Both the position numbers and the translations under genes were made by a program. Below the pieces are notes generated by a model. It saw only the letters and a list, made by a program, of their open reading frames with translations. It was not told the origin of the DNA and did no database searches. From positions 489,402 through 553,401 of the forward strand of contig NZ_BHXQ01000001.1 of NCBI RefSeq assembly GCF_003990915.1: a stretch of DNA of 64,000 bases, in the 5' to 3' direction. Position 1 is the first letter of the stretch; each line of letters starts with the position of its first letter. Positions 44,247-49,895 of the stretch are shown here, piece after piece. Source of the DNA: Chryseotalea sanaruensis. GTDB taxonomy: Bacteria > Bacteroidota > Bacteroidia > Cytophagales > Cyclobacteriaceae.

Positions 44247-44789
44247 TTGACTGATTATCAACATCTTCATCAGGATTTAATTGATCGCTGCAAAAATGGC
44301 GATGACCGTGCTTTTCAGTCATTGTATAAGCTTTATGCCAAAGCCATGTACAATGTCAGCTTCAGGATTACCGCCAGAGAAGAGGATGCACAAGACGCTG
44401 TGCAAGAGTCATTTATCAGTGCCTATCGTAATATTCAACACTATCGAGGGGATTCCTCCTTTGGTGCCTGGATAAAGCGGATTGTAGTGAACAGGTCTAT
44501 CAACATTATTAGAACAAAGAAAGCAGAGCTATGGCCTGAGGATGAGCGTTTTGATATTGAGGAGCAGGAAGCGCCTGAGGTCTACAAGGAAGACATGACG
44601 GTGGAACGTATTCGCATGGCTATTATGAATTTGCCTGATGGCTATCGGTCTGTAGTTAGTTTGTACTTATTAGAAGGCTATGACCACGAAGAAATTGCCA
44701 CCATTTTAGGTATTTCAGAATCTACATCAAAGTCGCAACTTAATAGGGCTAAAGCACGCTTACGGGAACAGCTAACAATGAAAGTATGA
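44247..44789 (+). CDS. ECF-type RNA polymerase sigma factor
   Basis: 180 residues starting from a TTG at 44247; no ATG precedes the conserved region, so the TTG is needed. Region 2 is seen as DRAFQSLYKLYAKAMYNVSFRIT, EDAQDAVQESFISAYRNI and FGAWIKRIVVNRSINIIR. Region 4 is LPDGYRSVVSLYLLEGYDHEEIATILGISESTSKSQLNRAKARL. The stop overlaps the next ATG by 4 bases (ATGA), and that gene encodes a small membrane protein that looks like its anti-sigma factor. The likely role is envelope-stress or surface-state control; no target is visible. Confidence 0.92.
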   Translation: MTDYQHLHQDLIDRCKNGDDRAFQSLYKLYAKAMYNVSFRITAREEDAQDAVQESFISAYRNIQHYRGDSSFGAWIKRIVVNRSINIIRTKKAELWPEDERFDIEEQEAPEVYKEDMTVERIRMAIMNLPDGYRSVVSLYLLEGYDHEEIATILGISESTSKSQLNRAKARLREQLTMKV

Positions 44790-45289
44790 AAGACGAATTG
44801 AAGGATTTTATGGAGCAGAACAGGGGCGCTTTTGATACAAAAGAAGTTCCTGAAAAAGTATGGACAAATGTTAGTCAACATTTGTTTGGGAGACAGCAAT
44901 TTTGGCAACCCATCCGCTATTGGCAGGCAGCTGCTGTGGTGTTTTTTGCATTATCCTCCTTTCTTTTTTTACAAGATAAGGTGGGCTTGAAACAACAAGC
45001 AAGCATGAAAGAGTTTAGGGCCACTGAAGCATTTTACATAGAAGAGATTTCGGAAAAAAAGAAGATGATTCATGCTGTAAGTGCCAATGACCTGAACGGT
45101 TTTACGCAGGACTTTCAGCAGTTGGAAGCCATGTATATGGTTTTGAAAGAGGAGATGAATCAGAAACCCAGTGAAAAGGTTAAGGATGCACTTATCCTTA
45201 ACCTGATTATCCGGATTAACTTATTAAATAAACAACTTCACGAAGTGGAAGAATCTTCCAGGGCTGAAGATGAAGCTGTTATCAGTTAA
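44786..45289 (+). CDS. Putative anti-sigma factor, single membrane span
   Basis: 167 residues. A cytoplasmic N-terminal part (MKDELKDFMEQNRGAFDTKEVPEKVW, about residues 1-45) precedes one membrane helix WQAAAVVFFALSSFLFL (about 47-63). A periplasmic alpha-helical tail follows with coiled-coil character (FRATEAFYIEEISEKKKMI, QLEAMYMVLKEEM). No zinc-finger HxxxCxxC motif of classic ZAS anti-sigmas is visible. The assignment rests on overlap with the ECF gene and topology, the standard arrangement in Bacteroidota. It overlaps the convergent permease gene by 8 bases. Confidence 0.65.
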   Translation: MKDELKDFMEQNRGAFDTKEVPEKVWTNVSQHLFGRQQFWQPIRYWQAAAVVFFALSSFLFLQDKVGLKQQASMKEFRATEAFYIEEISEKKKMIHAVSANDLNGFTQDFQQLEAMYMVLKEEMNQKPSEKVKDALILNLIIRINLLNKQLHEVEESSRAEDEAVIS

Positions 45290-46154
45290 TTGCGCGTACT
45301 AATTTTCGTTTTAAAATACCGTGGGTAGGTGAGAAGACAAAGGCTAATGCAAAGAGCAAACCACACATTGTGGCTATAGCCGCTGCAATGGAACCGTCCA
45401 TCCAAACCGCCAAGTAATATCCTGAGGCCGATGCCACAACGCCAACACCACTGGAAATTAGCAGCATACGTTTAAAATTATCGGTAAGTAAGTAGGCTGT
45501 CGCGGGTGGTACAATCAGCAAGGCCACCACTAAAATTGCTCCGACAGATTCGAAAGAAGCAACTGTTGTGGCAGACACCATACCCATAAGTAAGTAATGC
45601 CAAAAAGCGGTTGAGAAACCTAAGGCAGTGGCATAACCCGGATCGAAAGAAGTCACCAATAATTCTTTGTAGAAAAAGTATATCACCAATAAAATACTGA
45701 TAAGCACGCAACTCATGACTACAATAGCTTTAGGAGCTAATAAATAACCACCCTCAAGTATAATCATGTCAAGTGGCGTGTAGGCAATCTCTCCATACAA
45801 AACGCAATCCTGGTCTAAGTCAACCTTCCCAGCAAAAAGTGAGATTAACACTACACCAATAGCAAAGAGCCAGGTAAATGTTACACCAATGGCAGCATCA
45901 CTTTGCAGTTTTGCTTTTTTGTGAAAGAACTCGATTAGAAAGGTAGTAATCAAGCCAAGCAGACCTGCACCAATTACCATCGTTAATGAATCCCTTGACC
46001 CTGAAAATAGAAAAGCCAATACGATTCCAGGTAACACAGCATGCGAGATTGCATCGCCCACCAAAGCCATTCTTCTTAAGATAAGAAAGCAGCCTAACAG
46101 CGCACATGAAATGGCTACTAAAGAACCTGTAAGAATAATCCAAAAGTCGTTCAT
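45282..46154 (-). CDS. Metal-ion ABC transporter permease (ABC-3 family)
   Basis: 290 residues, almost entirely hydrophobic, with about eight or nine membrane helices. Family features are SCALLGCFLILRRMALVGDAISHAVLPGIVLAFL near the N-terminus (the conserved D-SHAVLPG metal-path motif), a later GALLVV-like ESVGAILVVALLIVPPATAYLL, and SGYYLAVWMDGSIAAAIA. It forms part of the inner-membrane pore of a Mn/Zn/Fe-type importer. It is the last gene of the operon and starts one base after the stop of the first permease. The two permeases probably form a heterodimer. Confidence 0.92.
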   Translation of the reverse strand: MNDFWIILTGSLVAISCALLGCFLILRRMALVGDAISHAVLPGIVLAFLFSGSRDSLTMVIGAGLLGLITTFLIEFFHKKAKLQSDAAIGVTFTWLFAIGVVLISLFAGKVDLDQDCVLYGEIAYTPLDMIILEGGYLLAPKAIVVMSCVLISILLVIYFFYKELLVTSFDPGYATALGFSTAFWHYLLMGMVSATTVASFESVGAILVVALLIVPPATAYLLTDNFKRMLLISSGVGVVASASGYYLAVWMDGSIAAAIATMCGLLFALAFVFSPTHGILKRKLVRAIN

Positions 46155-46155
46155 G

Positions 46156-47442
46156 TCAGTAAGGAATTTTTGTTTTATGAGGATCTACAACCGGGTAATT
46201 CAAAATCTGTTCTAAATCTGCTTCAAGCTCAGGTGTAAGAAAGTGTTCGATGGTATCTGCATCTTCATGCACATGATCAGGTGCAATGTGTACGTGTGTT
46301 GTTAAATATAATTCCCATAGCCTGTGAATTTTTACAATTCGTTGTGCCCTGGTTTTACCCTCTTGAGTTAATACACAAAGCTTACCTATTTTTTCAAGGT
46401 AGCCCTGGCTACATAATCGTTGAATCGATCTGTGCAATCCCTTTTTATCAAAACTACGCTTGCGAATAATTTCATCTGCATAACGTTGCACGAAAAAGTT
46501 TTTACTACTTTCTCCCAATTGATACAAAACTTTTAAAACGTTTTCATCTTGTATGGTTCTGCGGAACCTTCTTTGTTTAAAATAACGATTCAGTATTCCT
46601 TTTTTGGGCGCTATCATAAACGAAAGCAGTGCAAGGGTAGAAACAACAATGACGATCCACGGGCCTGTAGGCATAGACGGTGCAGTGTAAGAGATGTATG
46701 CTCCTGCCAGCCCACTAAACGCACCCACCAGTGCTGCAATTATAAACATAATGCGTATTGAGTTGGTCCAGAAGCGCGCAACCGCAGCAGGGGTAATTAA
46801 CACTGCAGCCATCAACACTACACCTACGGCTTGTATGCCTACTACGACTGCCAAAACAATCATGGAAGTCAAGAGTAGCTCTAGTCTTTTTACCGGTAAG
46901 CCCAATGCCACAGCATAATTGCGATCAAATACCAGAAGTTTAAACTCTTTGAAAAATAAAAGCGTAAAAGTTATTAGCAGAATGGAGACAATCGAAAATG
47001 TAATTAAATCTGCACCCACTAAAGATGCAGCTTTACCAAAAATGAAATGATCTAAGCCAGATTGATTTGCATTACCACTTTTTTGAATATAGGTTAAGAG
47101 CAAAATACCGAAACCAAAAAACACGGACAGAATTAATCCAATGGCAGTGTCTTCTTTAATCCGACTTTTTGCAATTATATATTGAATGGCATAAAGCGAT
47201 AGCCATCCCGTTATAAAGGCTCCAGCAATCAAGTAAAGTGGATTCTTGGTGCCACTTAATAAAAAACCTAGACAGATGCCCGGCAATACGGCATGCGCAA
47301 TGGCATCACCAATTAATGATTTCTTATTCAGAAAAGTAAAAGAACCAACCAACGCAGAACTTGCCGTTATTAATACAGCTCCTGCCGTAACGTAACGCAC
47401 ATTAGGATCTGAAAAGGAAAAGAAGTCAGTGAAGTTACTCAT
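46156..47442 (-). CDS. Metal-ion ABC transporter permease fused to a DtxR/MntR-like C-terminal domain
   Basis: 428 residues. About residues 1-290 are an ABC-3 permease (NKKSLIGDAIAHAVLPGICLGFLLSG; about nine helices). The remaining 135 residues are soluble. A winged helix (VLKVLYQLGESSKNFFVQ, GLHRSIQRLCSQGYLEKIGKLCVLTQEGKTRA) is followed by HRLWELYLTTHVHIAPDHVHEDADTIEHFLTPELEADLEQIL and YPVVDPHKTKIPY. This tail closely parallels the metal-sensing domain of the DtxR/MntR regulator in the same operon (HRLWETFLVEKLG, VHDVAEQLEHI, YPTADPHGHPIP). A cytoplasmic metal-sensing or inhibitory module is inferred. ATGA overlap with the ATPase gene. Confidence 0.88.
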   Translation of the reverse strand: MSNFTDFFSFSDPNVRYVTAGAVLITASSALVGSFTFLNKKSLIGDAIAHAVLPGICLGFLLSGTKNPLYLIAGAFITGWLSLYAIQYIIAKSRIKEDTAIGLILSVFFGFGILLLTYIQKSGNANQSGLDHFIFGKAASLVGADLITFSIVSILLITFTLLFFKEFKLLVFDRNYAVALGLPVKRLELLLTSMIVLAVVVGIQAVGVVLMAAVLITPAAVARFWTNSIRIMFIIAALVGAFSGLAGAYISYTAPSMPTGPWIVIVVSTLALLSFMIAPKKGILNRYFKQRRFRRTIQDENVLKVLYQLGESSKNFFVQRYADEIIRKRSFDKKGLHRSIQRLCSQGYLEKIGKLCVLTQEGKTRAQRIVKIHRLWELYLTTHVHIAPDHVHEDADTIEHFLTPELEADLEQILNYPVVDPHKTKIPY

Positions 47443-48239
47443 AATACTTTCTCCTCGCGGTTTGGAAAATTCTCTCTGCGAATTAAATCGCCCACATCCG
47501 ATAGTAGTGTAAGTTTACCACCATATGTTTCCTGAAGTTTATCCTGCGTAAAGGTGCTTGTTGTTGGTCCGTTTGCAACCAATCTTGTGTTTAACAGAAT
47601 CACCCAATCAAAGTAACTGCTTACTGATTGTAAATCGTGATGCACCACAATAACAGTTTTATTAGCTGCTGTCATTGTGCGTAATAAATTGATGATGGCT
47701 TTTTCTGTTGCGGCATCCACACCTGCAAAAGGTTCATCCATAAAATAGATATCTGCCTGTTGTGCCAATGCACGAGCAAGAAAAGTTCTTTGCTGTTGTC
47801 CACCCGATAGTTGGGCTATCTGTCGGTTAGCAAAAGATTCCATACCTACTTTTCTAAGGCAATCCATGGCTACATCTAAATCTGCTTTACGAGGTCGCTT
47901 GAGTAAACCAAGTTTACCATAACGTCCCATCATAACCACATCCAGCACCGATACCGGAAAATCCCAATCCACTGATTCACGTTGTGGCACATAAGATATG
48001 CGATGTCTCACATCATCAATCTTCTCATCAAATATTTTACAATAACCACTGCTAAGTGGCAGCAAGCCCATAACCGATTTGATCAAGGTAGATTTACCGG
48101 CACCATTCGGACCAATAATACCAACTAGTTTTCCCTGGGGTATTTCAAGGTCGATATTCCACAATACAGGCTTGCGATCGAAAGCAACAGTAAGGTCGTG
48201 TACTTCAAGTGCTGATACCGCACTAATATTCTTATTCAT
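47439..48239 (-). CDS. Metal-ion ABC transporter ATP-binding protein
   Basis: The ATG at 48239 (MNKNISAVSALEV) is chosen over a GTG five codons upstream that overlaps the binding-protein gene; the product has 266 residues. Walker A is GPNGAGKSTL, the Q-loop YVPQRESVDWDFP, the signature LSGGQQQRTFLARAL, Walker B DIYFMDEPFAGVD, and the switch His is in VVHHDL. The SVDWDFP stretch is typical of Mn/Zn importer ATPases. It powers import through the two permeases. It overlaps the first permease gene by 4 bases. Confidence 0.94.
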   Translation of the reverse strand: MNKNISAVSALEVHDLTVAFDRKPVLWNIDLEIPQGKLVGIIGPNGAGKSTLIKSVMGLLPLSSGYCKIFDEKIDDVRHRISYVPQRESVDWDFPVSVLDVVMMGRYGKLGLLKRPRKADLDVAMDCLRKVGMESFANRQIAQLSGGQQQRTFLARALAQQADIYFMDEPFAGVDAATEKAIINLLRTMTAANKTVIVVHHDLQSVSSYFDWVILLNTRLVANGPTTSTFTQDKLQETYGGKLTLLSDVGDLIRRENFPNREEKVL

Positions 48240-48240
48240 A

Positions 48241-49185
48241 TTATTGGAGAGCACTCACAATGGTGCTCACATTTTTACTAACCATGCCAATGTAAGTTCC
48301 TTCAGGTGTGTTGGCTTCACCCATGGCGTCTGAGTATAGGCTTCCACCTATACTTACTTGCCAACCTTTATTCTGACAACCCTCAATTACTGCATTAATT
48401 GATTTTTCAGATACCGATGTTTCTACAAAAATTGCTTTGATCTTTCTGCTGATGATAAAGTCAACTAGTTCAGTTACATCCTTCAATCCAAACTCTGAAA
48501 CTGTTGAAATACCTTGTAAACCTCTAACTTCCATAGCATAAGCATCACCGAAATACCCAAAAGCATCGTGGGCAGTAATAAGCACCCGCTGTGTTGCGGG
48601 TATAGTTTGAATTTGCTGAGAAACTGCGTTGTCGAGCGAATCTAATTGTGTTAAGTAGCGTGCAGCATTTACTTTGTACACATGTTGTTTTGCAGAGTCT
48701 ACTGTACTTAAATTTTTTTCAACTTCAACCACCGCATTTTTCCAAAGCTTTACATCAAACCAAATGTGTGGGTCATGTATGCCCTCCGTTATTAATCTGA
48801 GCTCATTTTCCTGAATAGCTTGGGTTACGGGAATTACCGTTTTTGTTCTGCCCAATTTCTCCAGTACTTCTGCCATTTTTCCTTCGAGATGTAGCCCGTT
48901 ATAAAAAATAACATCTGCATCTGTTAATTTTTGTAGATCACCCTGTGTGGCTTTATAAAGATGAGGATCAACACCAGCGCCCATCAGTGAAATAACGTCA
49001 GCGCCATCGCCAGTTACATTCTTGACTGCATCAGCAATCATCCCGGTAGTCGTTACAATCATTAAGCGTTCACGCAGCTCACCTTTTTGCTTTGGCTTAC
49101 AAGCTATTACCAGCGTAAACACCAGAAAAAATGGAAGTGTTGCATTTAAGAATTTGAAATTTGAAATTTGAAATTTATATAACAT
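48241..49185 (-). CDS. Metal-binding lipoprotein of the ABC importer (TroA/ZnuA-like)
   Basis: 314 residues. The N-terminus is a lipoprotein signal ending FLVFTLVIACKPK, with the lipobox Cys. Candidate metal ligands are the His of GAGVDPHLYKATQGD, the His of HDPHIWFDVKLW, the region ITAHDAFGYFGD, and an Asp in LYSDAMGEANTPEGTY. GLQGISTVSEFG is typical of the Mn/Fe/Zn binding proteins of cluster 9. The metal cannot be decided by eye. The first residues after Met (LYKFQISNFKF) are encoded by the ATTTGAA repeat. The start lies 3 bases from the regulator stop, so the operon is tight. Confidence 0.9.
   Translation of the reverse strand: MLYKFQISNFKFLNATLPFFLVFTLVIACKPKQKGELRERLMIVTTTGMIADAVKNVTGDGADVISLMGAGVDPHLYKATQGDLQKLTDADVIFYNGLHLEGKMAEVLEKLGRTKTVIPVTQAIQENELRLITEGIHDPHIWFDVKLWKNAVVEVEKNLSTVDSAKQHVYKVNAARYLTQLDSLDNAVSQQIQTIPATQRVLITAHDAFGYFGDAYAMEVRGLQGISTVSEFGLKDVTELVDFIISRKIKAIFVETSVSEKSINAVIEGCQNKGWQVSIGGSLYSDAMGEANTPEGTYIGMVSKNVSTIVSALQ
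49151..49178. repeat. ATTTGAA repeat inside the start of the metal-binding lipoprotein gene
   Basis: Three or more AATTTGA units lie in the first codons of the lipoprotein gene and encode its KFQISNFKF segment. The same unit is intergenic elsewhere in the window. It probably inserted or expanded at the gene boundary and was absorbed into the signal peptide. Confidence 0.6.
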
Positions 49186-49188
49186 AGT

Positions 49189-49845
49189 CTATTCTTTTAC
49201 TAAGATGTTTTCTGCAGCCTCACGTGAAATCAGCTGTGGCTTTTTATTTTGAATACTTACTTCAAGTGAACCATCAAACTCAATGCGTTCGCGCACCGTG
49301 ATGGACACACCAATAGATACTCCTATTTTACTGAGATATTGAAGAAAAGGAGAGGAGCCATTGCGCACAGCACAAACAACAAGGGGTTTATTGACAAGTG
49401 CTTCTTTTAGTACAATTTGCTTCTCTTGCTTAATTTTGCCATGTTTATCCGGAATAGGATGGCCATGTGGATCAGCAGTCGGGTAGTCTAGAAACGCATC
49501 AAGCTTTTCAATTAACAAGCTCGAGTTAATGTGTTCCAGTTGTTCGGCCACATCATGTACCTCATCCCAGGCAAATCCAAGTTTTTCTACTAAAAAGGTT
49601 TCCCATAAGCGGTGCTTGCGTACAATGGTCAATGCATGCGCTTTGCCTTTTTTAGTAACATTTACTCCATAATATTTCTCATAAGTGATAAACTCCTTCA
49701 ACGAAAGCTTTTTTATCATGTCAGTAACAGTGGCCGCTTTGGTAAGCAAAGAGGCGGCTATTTCGTTGGTGAGCACCGATTTATGCCCGCCTTCCGACAA
49801 GTGATAGATGGTTTTTAGATAGTTTTCTTCAGTGTAGCTAAGCAT
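49189..49845 (-). CDS. DtxR/MntR-family metal-dependent transcriptional regulator
   Basis: 218 residues. An N-terminal winged helix (LSYTEENYLKTIYHLSEGGHKSVLTNEIAASLLTKAATVTDMIKKL) is followed by the metal-binding and dimerisation domain (HRLWETFLVEKLGFAWDEVHDVAEQLEHINSSLLIEKLDAFL, YPTADPHGHPIP). A C-terminal SH3-like FeoA-type domain occupies about residues 145-218. Regulators of this family repress metal importers when Mn or Fe is bound. It is the first gene of the importer operon, and a palindrome TTTAGACTAATCTAAA lies 35 bases upstream of its ATG over the promoter, so it most likely represses its own operon. Confidence 0.92.
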   Translation of the reverse strand: MLSYTEENYLKTIYHLSEGGHKSVLTNEIAASLLTKAATVTDMIKKLSLKEFITYEKYYGVNVTKKGKAHALTIVRKHRLWETFLVEKLGFAWDEVHDVAEQLEHINSSLLIEKLDAFLDYPTADPHGHPIPDKHGKIKQEKQIVLKEALVNKPLVVCAVRNGSSPFLQYLSKIGVSIGVSITVRERIEFDGSLEVSIQNKKPQLISREAAENILVKE

Positions 49846-49867: not shown

Positions 49868-49895
49868 CAAAAATAAAAGTTTAGACTAATCTAAA
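49868..49895 (-). promoter_or_regulatory. Promoter -7 element with DtxR/MntR-like operator
   Basis: On the minus strand the -7 element TATTTTTG (49868-49875) matches TAnnTTTG. Immediately upstream is the palindrome TTTAGACTAATCTAAA (49880-49895), with 6-bp perfect arms TTTAGA/TCTAAA. It has the general layout of DtxR/MntR-family boxes (TTAGGTTAGCCTAA type). It lies between the likely -33 and -7, so a bound repressor would block polymerase. Confidence 0.65.

Follow-up and report, generated by a model that had tools for sequence, protein, structure and literature searches.

The window, a stretch of 64,000 nucleotides of the Chryseotalea sanaruensis genome [RefSeq assembly GCF_003990915.1, contig NZ_BHXQ01000001.1], carries an operon for a metal ABC importer on its minus strand. 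Reading 5′ to 3′, the genes encode a separate MntR regulator, a binding protein, an ATPase, a permease fused to an additional C-terminal domain (here called the tail), and a second permease that has no tail. The order binding protein, ATPase, fused permease, second permease is found in the window, in locus L103 and in most Bacteroidota loci. The features are listed below, with positions counted from the first letter of the window.

45282..46154, minus strand: second ABC-3 permease (TroD-like), without a tail
46156..47442, minus strand: fused permease, 428 aa plus stop; ABC-3 (TroC/PsaC-like) permease with a C-terminal tail of predicted DtxR fold
46609..47442, minus strand: permease part, residues 1-278; PF00950 at 15-277; full model matches PsaC 7kyp
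46549..46608, minus strand: short basic linker, residues 279-298, predicted within a single helix (283-313)
46330..46548, minus strand: winged-helix (HTH) half of the tail, approximately residues 299-371, with N301 at the helix-1 ligand position
46162..46368, minus strand: metal-binding/dimerisation half of the tail, residues 359-427 by Pfam
Metal-half residues in the fusion: H373, E377, H392, D396, E399 and H400, and DPH at 420-422
47439..48254, minus strand: ABC ATPase (TroB-like)
48241..49185, minus strand: TroA-type metal-binding protein (ZnuA family; TroA E 6e-83)
49189..49845, minus strand: separate MntR with DtxR HTH, metal and FeoA domains
49880..49895, unstranded: palindrome TTTAGATTAGTCTAAA, likely MntR operator, upstream of mntR

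A sigma-factor-like gene and a second small gene, recognised by reading the sequence at 44247-45289, lie on the plus strand and converge on the operon. The tail is present on just one of the two window permeases, and the tail and MntR carry the two Fe_dep_repr_C domains detected in this genome. A TroA-like binding protein would fit Mn or Zn as the transported metal; the chlamydial tail described below is reported to respond to Fe.

In the fused permease, an ABC-3 domain at residues 15-277 (Pfam E 2.9e-68) is followed by an Fe_dep_repr_C domain at 359-427 (E 3.3e-21; 75.5 bits, cut-off 27), and Pfam finds the same succession on one chain in L166 and L103. A DtxR/MntR-fold domain makes up the last ∼130 residues of the 428 aa protein. 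It is 33% identical to the operon MntR over 132 columns (E 5e-18 in a single comparison; 34%, E 1.3e-13 in a search of 296 genomes), and the motifs HRLWE (373-377), VHEDADTIEH (391-400) and YPVVDPH (416-422) are all found in MntR also. Together with the Fe_dep_repr_C match and the predicted fold, these features bear out the original prediction that the C-terminus of the permease repeats the pattern of the regulator encoded in the same operon. On its own, the tail sequence finds SloR (E 2.9e-13) among chains of solved structure, along with others of the DtxR family. PF01325, the Pfam model for the DtxR DNA-binding half, has no match up to E 0.01 in the window tail, or at E 0.01 in 8 other scanned tails with a metal half (L166 included), and is matched by the operon MntR. 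No FeoA domain was found in the window tail by Pfam.

A model of the tail alone (mean pLDDT 90.2, 25 sequences) adopts the DtxR fold, with a TM of 0.84 and a VIA Z of 18.3 to DR2539 and a VIA Z of 18.6 to DtxR (131 aligned residues at 2.0 Å). The predicted tail has a winged helix and a metal/dimerisation fold as in the DtxR/MntR family. In the full-length model (mean pLDDT 87.7, 55 sequences), the permease matches PsaC in the PsaBC structure of Streptococcus pneumoniae (7kyp, TM by target 0.91), and one predicted helix, 283-313, joins the membrane end to helix 1 of the tail. The matched PsaBC chains end near the permease (272-290 residues) and have no tail, whereas the window permease is tailed. 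Residues 278-300 include 8 K/R and 2 D/E, and under the positive-inside rule this basic stretch fits the cytoplasmic side of the membrane. The domain with the metal-ligand residues would then follow a basic, presumably cytoplasmic, permease end. The tail resembles MntR, SloR and DR2539 in predicted fold and metal ligands, but differs from them in being fused to a membrane protein, in lacking FeoA and in the weak conservation of its DNA-reading segment.

For comparison of the metal-binding sites, SloR D7, H76, E80, H95, E99, E102 and H103, which we take to be the primary and ancillary metal ligands, were used as the reference. With N/H/D/M accepted at position 7 and E/D/C at position 99, every one of the 51 Bacteroidota and 42 Chlamydiota first-permease tails analysed has a ligand-type residue at all seven positions, so that the finding which would have counted against the original prediction, ligands missing from most homologues, does not occur. 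Position 7 is N or H and position 99 is D or E in the tails of these two phyla, and the other five are identical throughout. The set is also complete in 5 of 6 other first-permease tails and 5 of 5 second-permease tails; the first tail of L090 has lost H95 and the DPH His. These counts cover tails retrieved because they resemble the window tail or Fe_dep_repr_C, a selection that under-represents degenerate tails; those of L097, L098 and L107, which were unmatched by the queries, fall outside the counts. Across 55 aligned full-length fusions, 17 of the 31 invariant columns are in the metal half of the tail.

Fusions were detected in at least 23 of 296 sampled Bacteroidota genomes (frames over 400 aa, among the matches listed), Bacteroidota being the GTDB phylum, which includes Chlorobi- and Kapabacteria-type loci (L049, L051, L108). 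A further DtxR-family (Fe_dep_repr_C) domain is present in 21 of these 23 listed genomes, and in G204 and G220 the fusion is the sole domain of the family. Fe_dep_repr_C was found in 73 of 79 Chlamydiota genomes, always in a frame of 413 aa or more; 65 of the 73 genomes yielded no other match, and the remaining 8 a second, smaller one. A 51-locus search adds Chthoniobacterales, Eisenbacteria, Myxococcales and one Parachlamydiaceae record. Since many genomes encode the fusion as an uninterrupted frame, and it recurs in the Bacteroidota and Chlamydiota genomes counted above, an annotation or frameshift artefact and an assembly artefact were both ruled out.

The nearest named relatives of the window protein are Cyclobacteriaceae and Fulvivirgaceae records, with 87% identity over the whole protein for L063 and 59-72% for the next. 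Tail and MntR share one locus in 24 named relatives, and MntR is encoded elsewhere in the genome in the three Parapedobacter genomes examined. Five Firmicutes loci (L099, L101, L102, L104 and L105) have a permease without a tail. In L052, L053 and L056 the tail sits on the second permease, and the second-permease fusions of L052 (652-2136) and L056 (661-2148), both from other Bacteroidota, have a longer MntR-like tail with a FeoA domain. DtxR-like tails occur on both permeases of the operon in L089 (249-2938) and L090 (5998-8621), from Myxococcales and Eisenbacteria records, and a tail-tail pair inside one transporter is thus possible there. The tails of L098 (5962-8257; Anaerolineae), L097 (5962-7299; Melghirimyces) and L107 (5402-6664; Alphaproteobacteria) read as winged-helix-like or remnant sequences whose metal half is lost or degenerate, and a Pfam scan found no metal-domain match in L098.

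Merging of identical sequences left 104 tails from 117 fusion rows and 83 of 92 MntR-like rows, and a quick tree of 127 columns was built from 127 of 189 rows, those over 75% identical or short being dropped. One branch (SH-aLRT 97) separates 73 tail rows from 54 others, and this split, which places tails from all phyla and from both permeases apart from standalone MntRs, is the only part of the tree used, since 72 of 124 inner forks are open and four long end branches were flagged. L111, L128 and L129 were first labelled MntR but fall in the tail group; they are fusion pieces cut by the end of a locus or contig. A recent duplication of the operon MntR onto the permease is ruled out by this grouping and by the identities: the window tail shares 68% of its residues with the G186 tail and 34% with the MntR of its own operon. 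Ten Bacteroidota MntR-like proteins of 337-345 aa form a branch of their own in the tree, and are found beside an ordinary MntR in L058, L060 and L062. The one scanned (L060, 813-1826) has Fe_dep_repr_C and two FeoA stretches, and no PF01325 match.

The closest studied system is Chlamydia trachomatis YtgCR (CT069/CTL0325), part of the YtgABCD importer, which is the same fusion of an ABC-3 permease with a C-terminal DtxR-fold tail. Its tail is homologous to that of the window and shares the ligand positions, and both operons include a binding protein, an ATPase and the fused permease; L103 adds a second permease after it. The window operon differs in having its own MntR and an MntR-type palindrome, and the HTH half of window-type tails is without the constraint seen in Chlamydiaceae YtgCR-type tails. 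L166 has 66 leucines, 2.44% tryptophan and a WWW motif, and is probably YtgCR, for which one paper gives the same figures (PMC7755916). Residues 24-427 of the window protein are 28% identical to L166 (E 8e-63). According to three papers (PMC6504234, PMC7755916, PMC5599777), the tail, YtgR, is cleaved off during infection and regulates ytgABCD and trpRBA. YtgR consists of the C-terminal 139 residues and reportedly functions as an iron-dependent repressor (PMC6504234); one earlier study, as described in PMC5599777, found zinc dependence instead of iron. The statement in the original prediction that the role of the fusion was not established therefore holds only in part, a role having been reported for YtgCR. 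Permease-DtxR fusions were already known from YtgCR, and the comparison in Bacteroidota is the new part. The permease-repressor and YtgCR articles found in the open-licence literature all concern Chlamydia or intracellular pathogens by title. Neither a Bacteroidota branch whose members have an MntR of their own nor the unequal constraint on the two tail halves, described below, was met in the available portions of the open-licence literature searched; likewise, neither a DtxR domain tied to trans-inhibition of a manganese ABC transporter nor, under that description, a DtxR-permease C-terminal fusion in metal uptake was found in open-licence literature.

The Treponema TroABCD system resembles the window in its TroA-type binding protein, two permeases, one ATPase and separate DtxR-family regulator. 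To our knowledge, the TroABCD regulator stands alone, and neither permease has been described with a tail. TroR, encoded in troABCDR, is named as the DtxR-family regulator in PMC5599777.

The two halves of the tail have evolved differently. In the 24 loci with both a tail and MntR, mean pairwise identity in the metal half is 0.771 for the tail and 0.791 for MntR, against 0.375 and 0.581 over the whole HTH and 0.391 and 0.648 in the recognition segment (SloR 33-50). The recognition segments were also compared at a matched metal-half identity of 0.65-0.75. For this, 69 of the 83 MntR-like rows were kept, those omitted being 3 truncated fusion pieces and 11 MntR-like proteins longer than 260 aa. 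The compared pairs share sequences and are not independent; the bootstrap resamples sequences. In this bin the segment is 0.284 identical in Bacteroidota tails (362 pairs; bootstrap 0.263-0.308), 0.594 in standalone MntRs (624 pairs; 0.572-0.621), and 0.592 in Chlamydiaceae tails (29 pairs; 0.528-0.663), the last being an author-chosen set of 10 tails, 8 with the WWW motif plus L150 and L167. Other Chlamydiota tails gave 0.253 (148 pairs), or 0.280 (bootstrap 0.258-0.303) when only columns filled in both rows are counted, which leaves the other three values unchanged. The recognition segment of Bacteroidota tails is therefore not constrained as in DNA-binding relatives (0.284 versus 0.592 and 0.594). 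By this measure, the Chlamydiaceae tails, for which repressor activity is reported, look like a DNA reader and the Bacteroidota tails do not.

Codon comparisons gave a similar division. Mean nonsynonymous change between close pairs was 0.182 in the tail HTH and 0.048 in the tail metal half (24 pairs), and 0.070 in the MntR HTH and 0.044 in the MntR metal half (14 of these pairs). The pairs were picked by the authors and share genomes, and because dS is saturated in many of them the usable dN/dS values number 13 for the tail HTH, 8 for the tail metal half and 4 for each half of MntR. The median dN/dS of the tail HTH, 0.10 over its 13 usable pairs, indicates purifying selection, so the HTH has some role, perhaps in protein contact, perhaps in DNA binding. 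A decaying tail was ruled out, as the metal half is conserved as in MntR and the dN/dS of the HTH is well under 1. Among the 42 Chlamydiota tails, six (L144, L145, L148, L156, L161 and L172) keep full ligand sets with an HTH stretch of just 46-58 residues, compared with 67-76 in the other 36; in 1 of 51 Bacteroidota tails it has 60. Chlamydiota outside Chlamydiaceae mostly have the fusion as their sole family member, yet the recognition segment drifts. Redundancy with MntR thus cannot explain the weak HTH constraint everywhere, given these genomes and G204 and G220.

The palindrome TTTAGATTAGTCTAAA has its sole exact match in the genome at this locus. The pattern TTAGN6CTAA was found upstream in 31 of 31 Bacteroidota operons checked, the window included; after dinucleotide shuffling of these 31 regions it occurred on average in 0.24 of them and never in more than 3. 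In the window and all 24 related Bacteroidota loci it precedes mntR, and in all 6 Parapedobacter operons it precedes the gene for the binding protein. None of the 4 upstream regions from other phyla (L090, L095, L106, L109) has it, giving 31 of 35 overall. Of 35 regions upstream of MntR, from 32 genomes where no fusion was seen, 21 (in 18 genomes) have the pattern and 14 do not, and hence it goes with MntR. A genome scan allowing up to 2 mismatches gave 17 places versus 13 for the control, near background. In Chlamydiota, 0 of 21 regions have a TTAGN6CTAA-like site within 260 bases before the binding-protein gene, a range in which start codons are unsure; the promoter may be further up, as a small gene overlaps the binding-protein gene in L190 and other regions are similar. 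In L190 (3400-4568; one Chlamydiota genome), this small gene is itself preceded by a P-loop ATPase gene, whose product is presumably Mrp/ApbC-like and would link the importer to iron-sulfur metabolism. It is strongly suggested by the sequences that MntR controls transcription of the operon via the conserved TTAGN6CTAA operator. As the operator is constant and the tail HTH drifts, MntR rather than the tail would read it, and we infer that the tail does not.

A membrane-tethered metal sensor acting on the transporter, with MntR controlling transcription, is the reading favoured here for the tail, held with a confidence about evenly divided between acceptance and doubt. The tail would stay at the cytoplasmic face of the transporter, bind an Mn2+/Fe2+-type metal when cytoplasmic levels are high, and then change conformation or pair via its metal/dimerisation half, slowing or stopping transport (trans-inhibition). 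Transporter activity would thereby be curbed quickly, and transcription more slowly by MntR. The regulatory domains of MetNI and ModABC are carried on the ATPase subunit and are not known to be DtxR folds. Both are ABC importers with substrate-sensing trans-inhibition, according to PMC10710835, and the likeness to the window lies in the proposed logic, in which a cytoplasmic substrate-binding domain brakes the importer; inhibition is shown there, and for the window it would be by analogy. The trans-inhibition reading draws on the retained ligands, the conserved metal half, the drifting recognition segment, the shortened HTH of some Chlamydiota tails, the constant operator, the further DtxR-family domain in most listed Bacteroidota fusion genomes and this precedent. 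Direct metal sensing, one of the roles raised by the original prediction, is thus favoured by the constraint pattern for the Bacteroidota version, while metal binding, cytoplasmic position and inhibition by the tail are things we infer, the last by analogy. With one tailed permease per window transporter, a dimer of the DtxR kind involving the tail could form only across two transporters, with MntR as the partner, or if the permease were a homodimer; this counts against trans-inhibition. So do the purifying selection on the HTH, the genomes in which the fusion is the sole family domain, the upstream regions without the palindrome (14 of 35 before MntR where no fusion was seen, and 4 of 4 from other phyla), the reported cleavage of the closest studied homologue to a repressor, and the loss of the metal half or of ligands in some tails outside the two main phyla (L090, L097, L098, L107).

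The tail could instead be cut from the permease, as YtgR is reported to be, and repress the operon or other genes together with MntR. Homology of the window fusion to YtgCR (28% to L166, E 8e-63), the report of iron-dependent repression by YtgR (PMC6504234), the supported branch that sets all tails apart in the quick tree (SH-aLRT 97) and a predicted fold that is still that of DNA-binding DtxR all agree with such a released repressor. It is nonetheless unlikely, as the recognition segment drifts among Bacteroidota tails before a constant operator and MntR is already there for repression; the missing PF01325 match at E 0.01 points the same way, though L166 also has no match, so that DNA binding is not excluded by this alone. 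If metal-dependent mixed dimers of tail and MntR formed, as the original prediction also raised, they could hold MntR at the membrane and tune repression to the number of transporters. The dimerisation half common to both proteins (33% identity), their shared locus in 24 named relatives and a dimer face that the single tailed permease may leave free would suit such a partnership, which is made improbable by the location of MntR elsewhere in three Parapedobacter genomes and by the 65 of 73 Chlamydiota fusion genomes that have no second family domain, yet complete ligands. It is similarly doubtful that the tail, with no sensing, takes up metal as it exits the permease or helps to keep the transporter stable; conserved ligands and a tail that starts directly at the permease end via a continuous predicted helix are consistent with this, but the full DtxR ligand set and dimerisation-half motifs that are kept would seem to exceed what a simple buffer needs.

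If the tail is a trans-inhibitory sensor, a broader and more tentative proposal, to which we give somewhat less than even weight, is that a DtxR-fold domain turned allosteric metal brake is the older and widespread role, in Bacteroidota, Chlamydiota and others, and that the chlamydial repressor YtgR is a later re-use. The re-use would be visible in the constraint on the recognition segment, present in Chlamydiaceae alone among the tail groups compared. A known repressor fold would then have a second life as a transporter brake, and one metal importer would be controlled at two levels by two versions of one sensor. Chlamydial YtgCR would be recast, its membrane-bound repressor explained as a sensor domain already on the pump and the repressor role of YtgR as derived. 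Bacteroidota with both proteins, such as Marivirga and Reichenbachiella, with fusion and MntR in one locus, and Parapedobacter, with MntR elsewhere, would make the idea testable outside an obligate intracellular bacterium.
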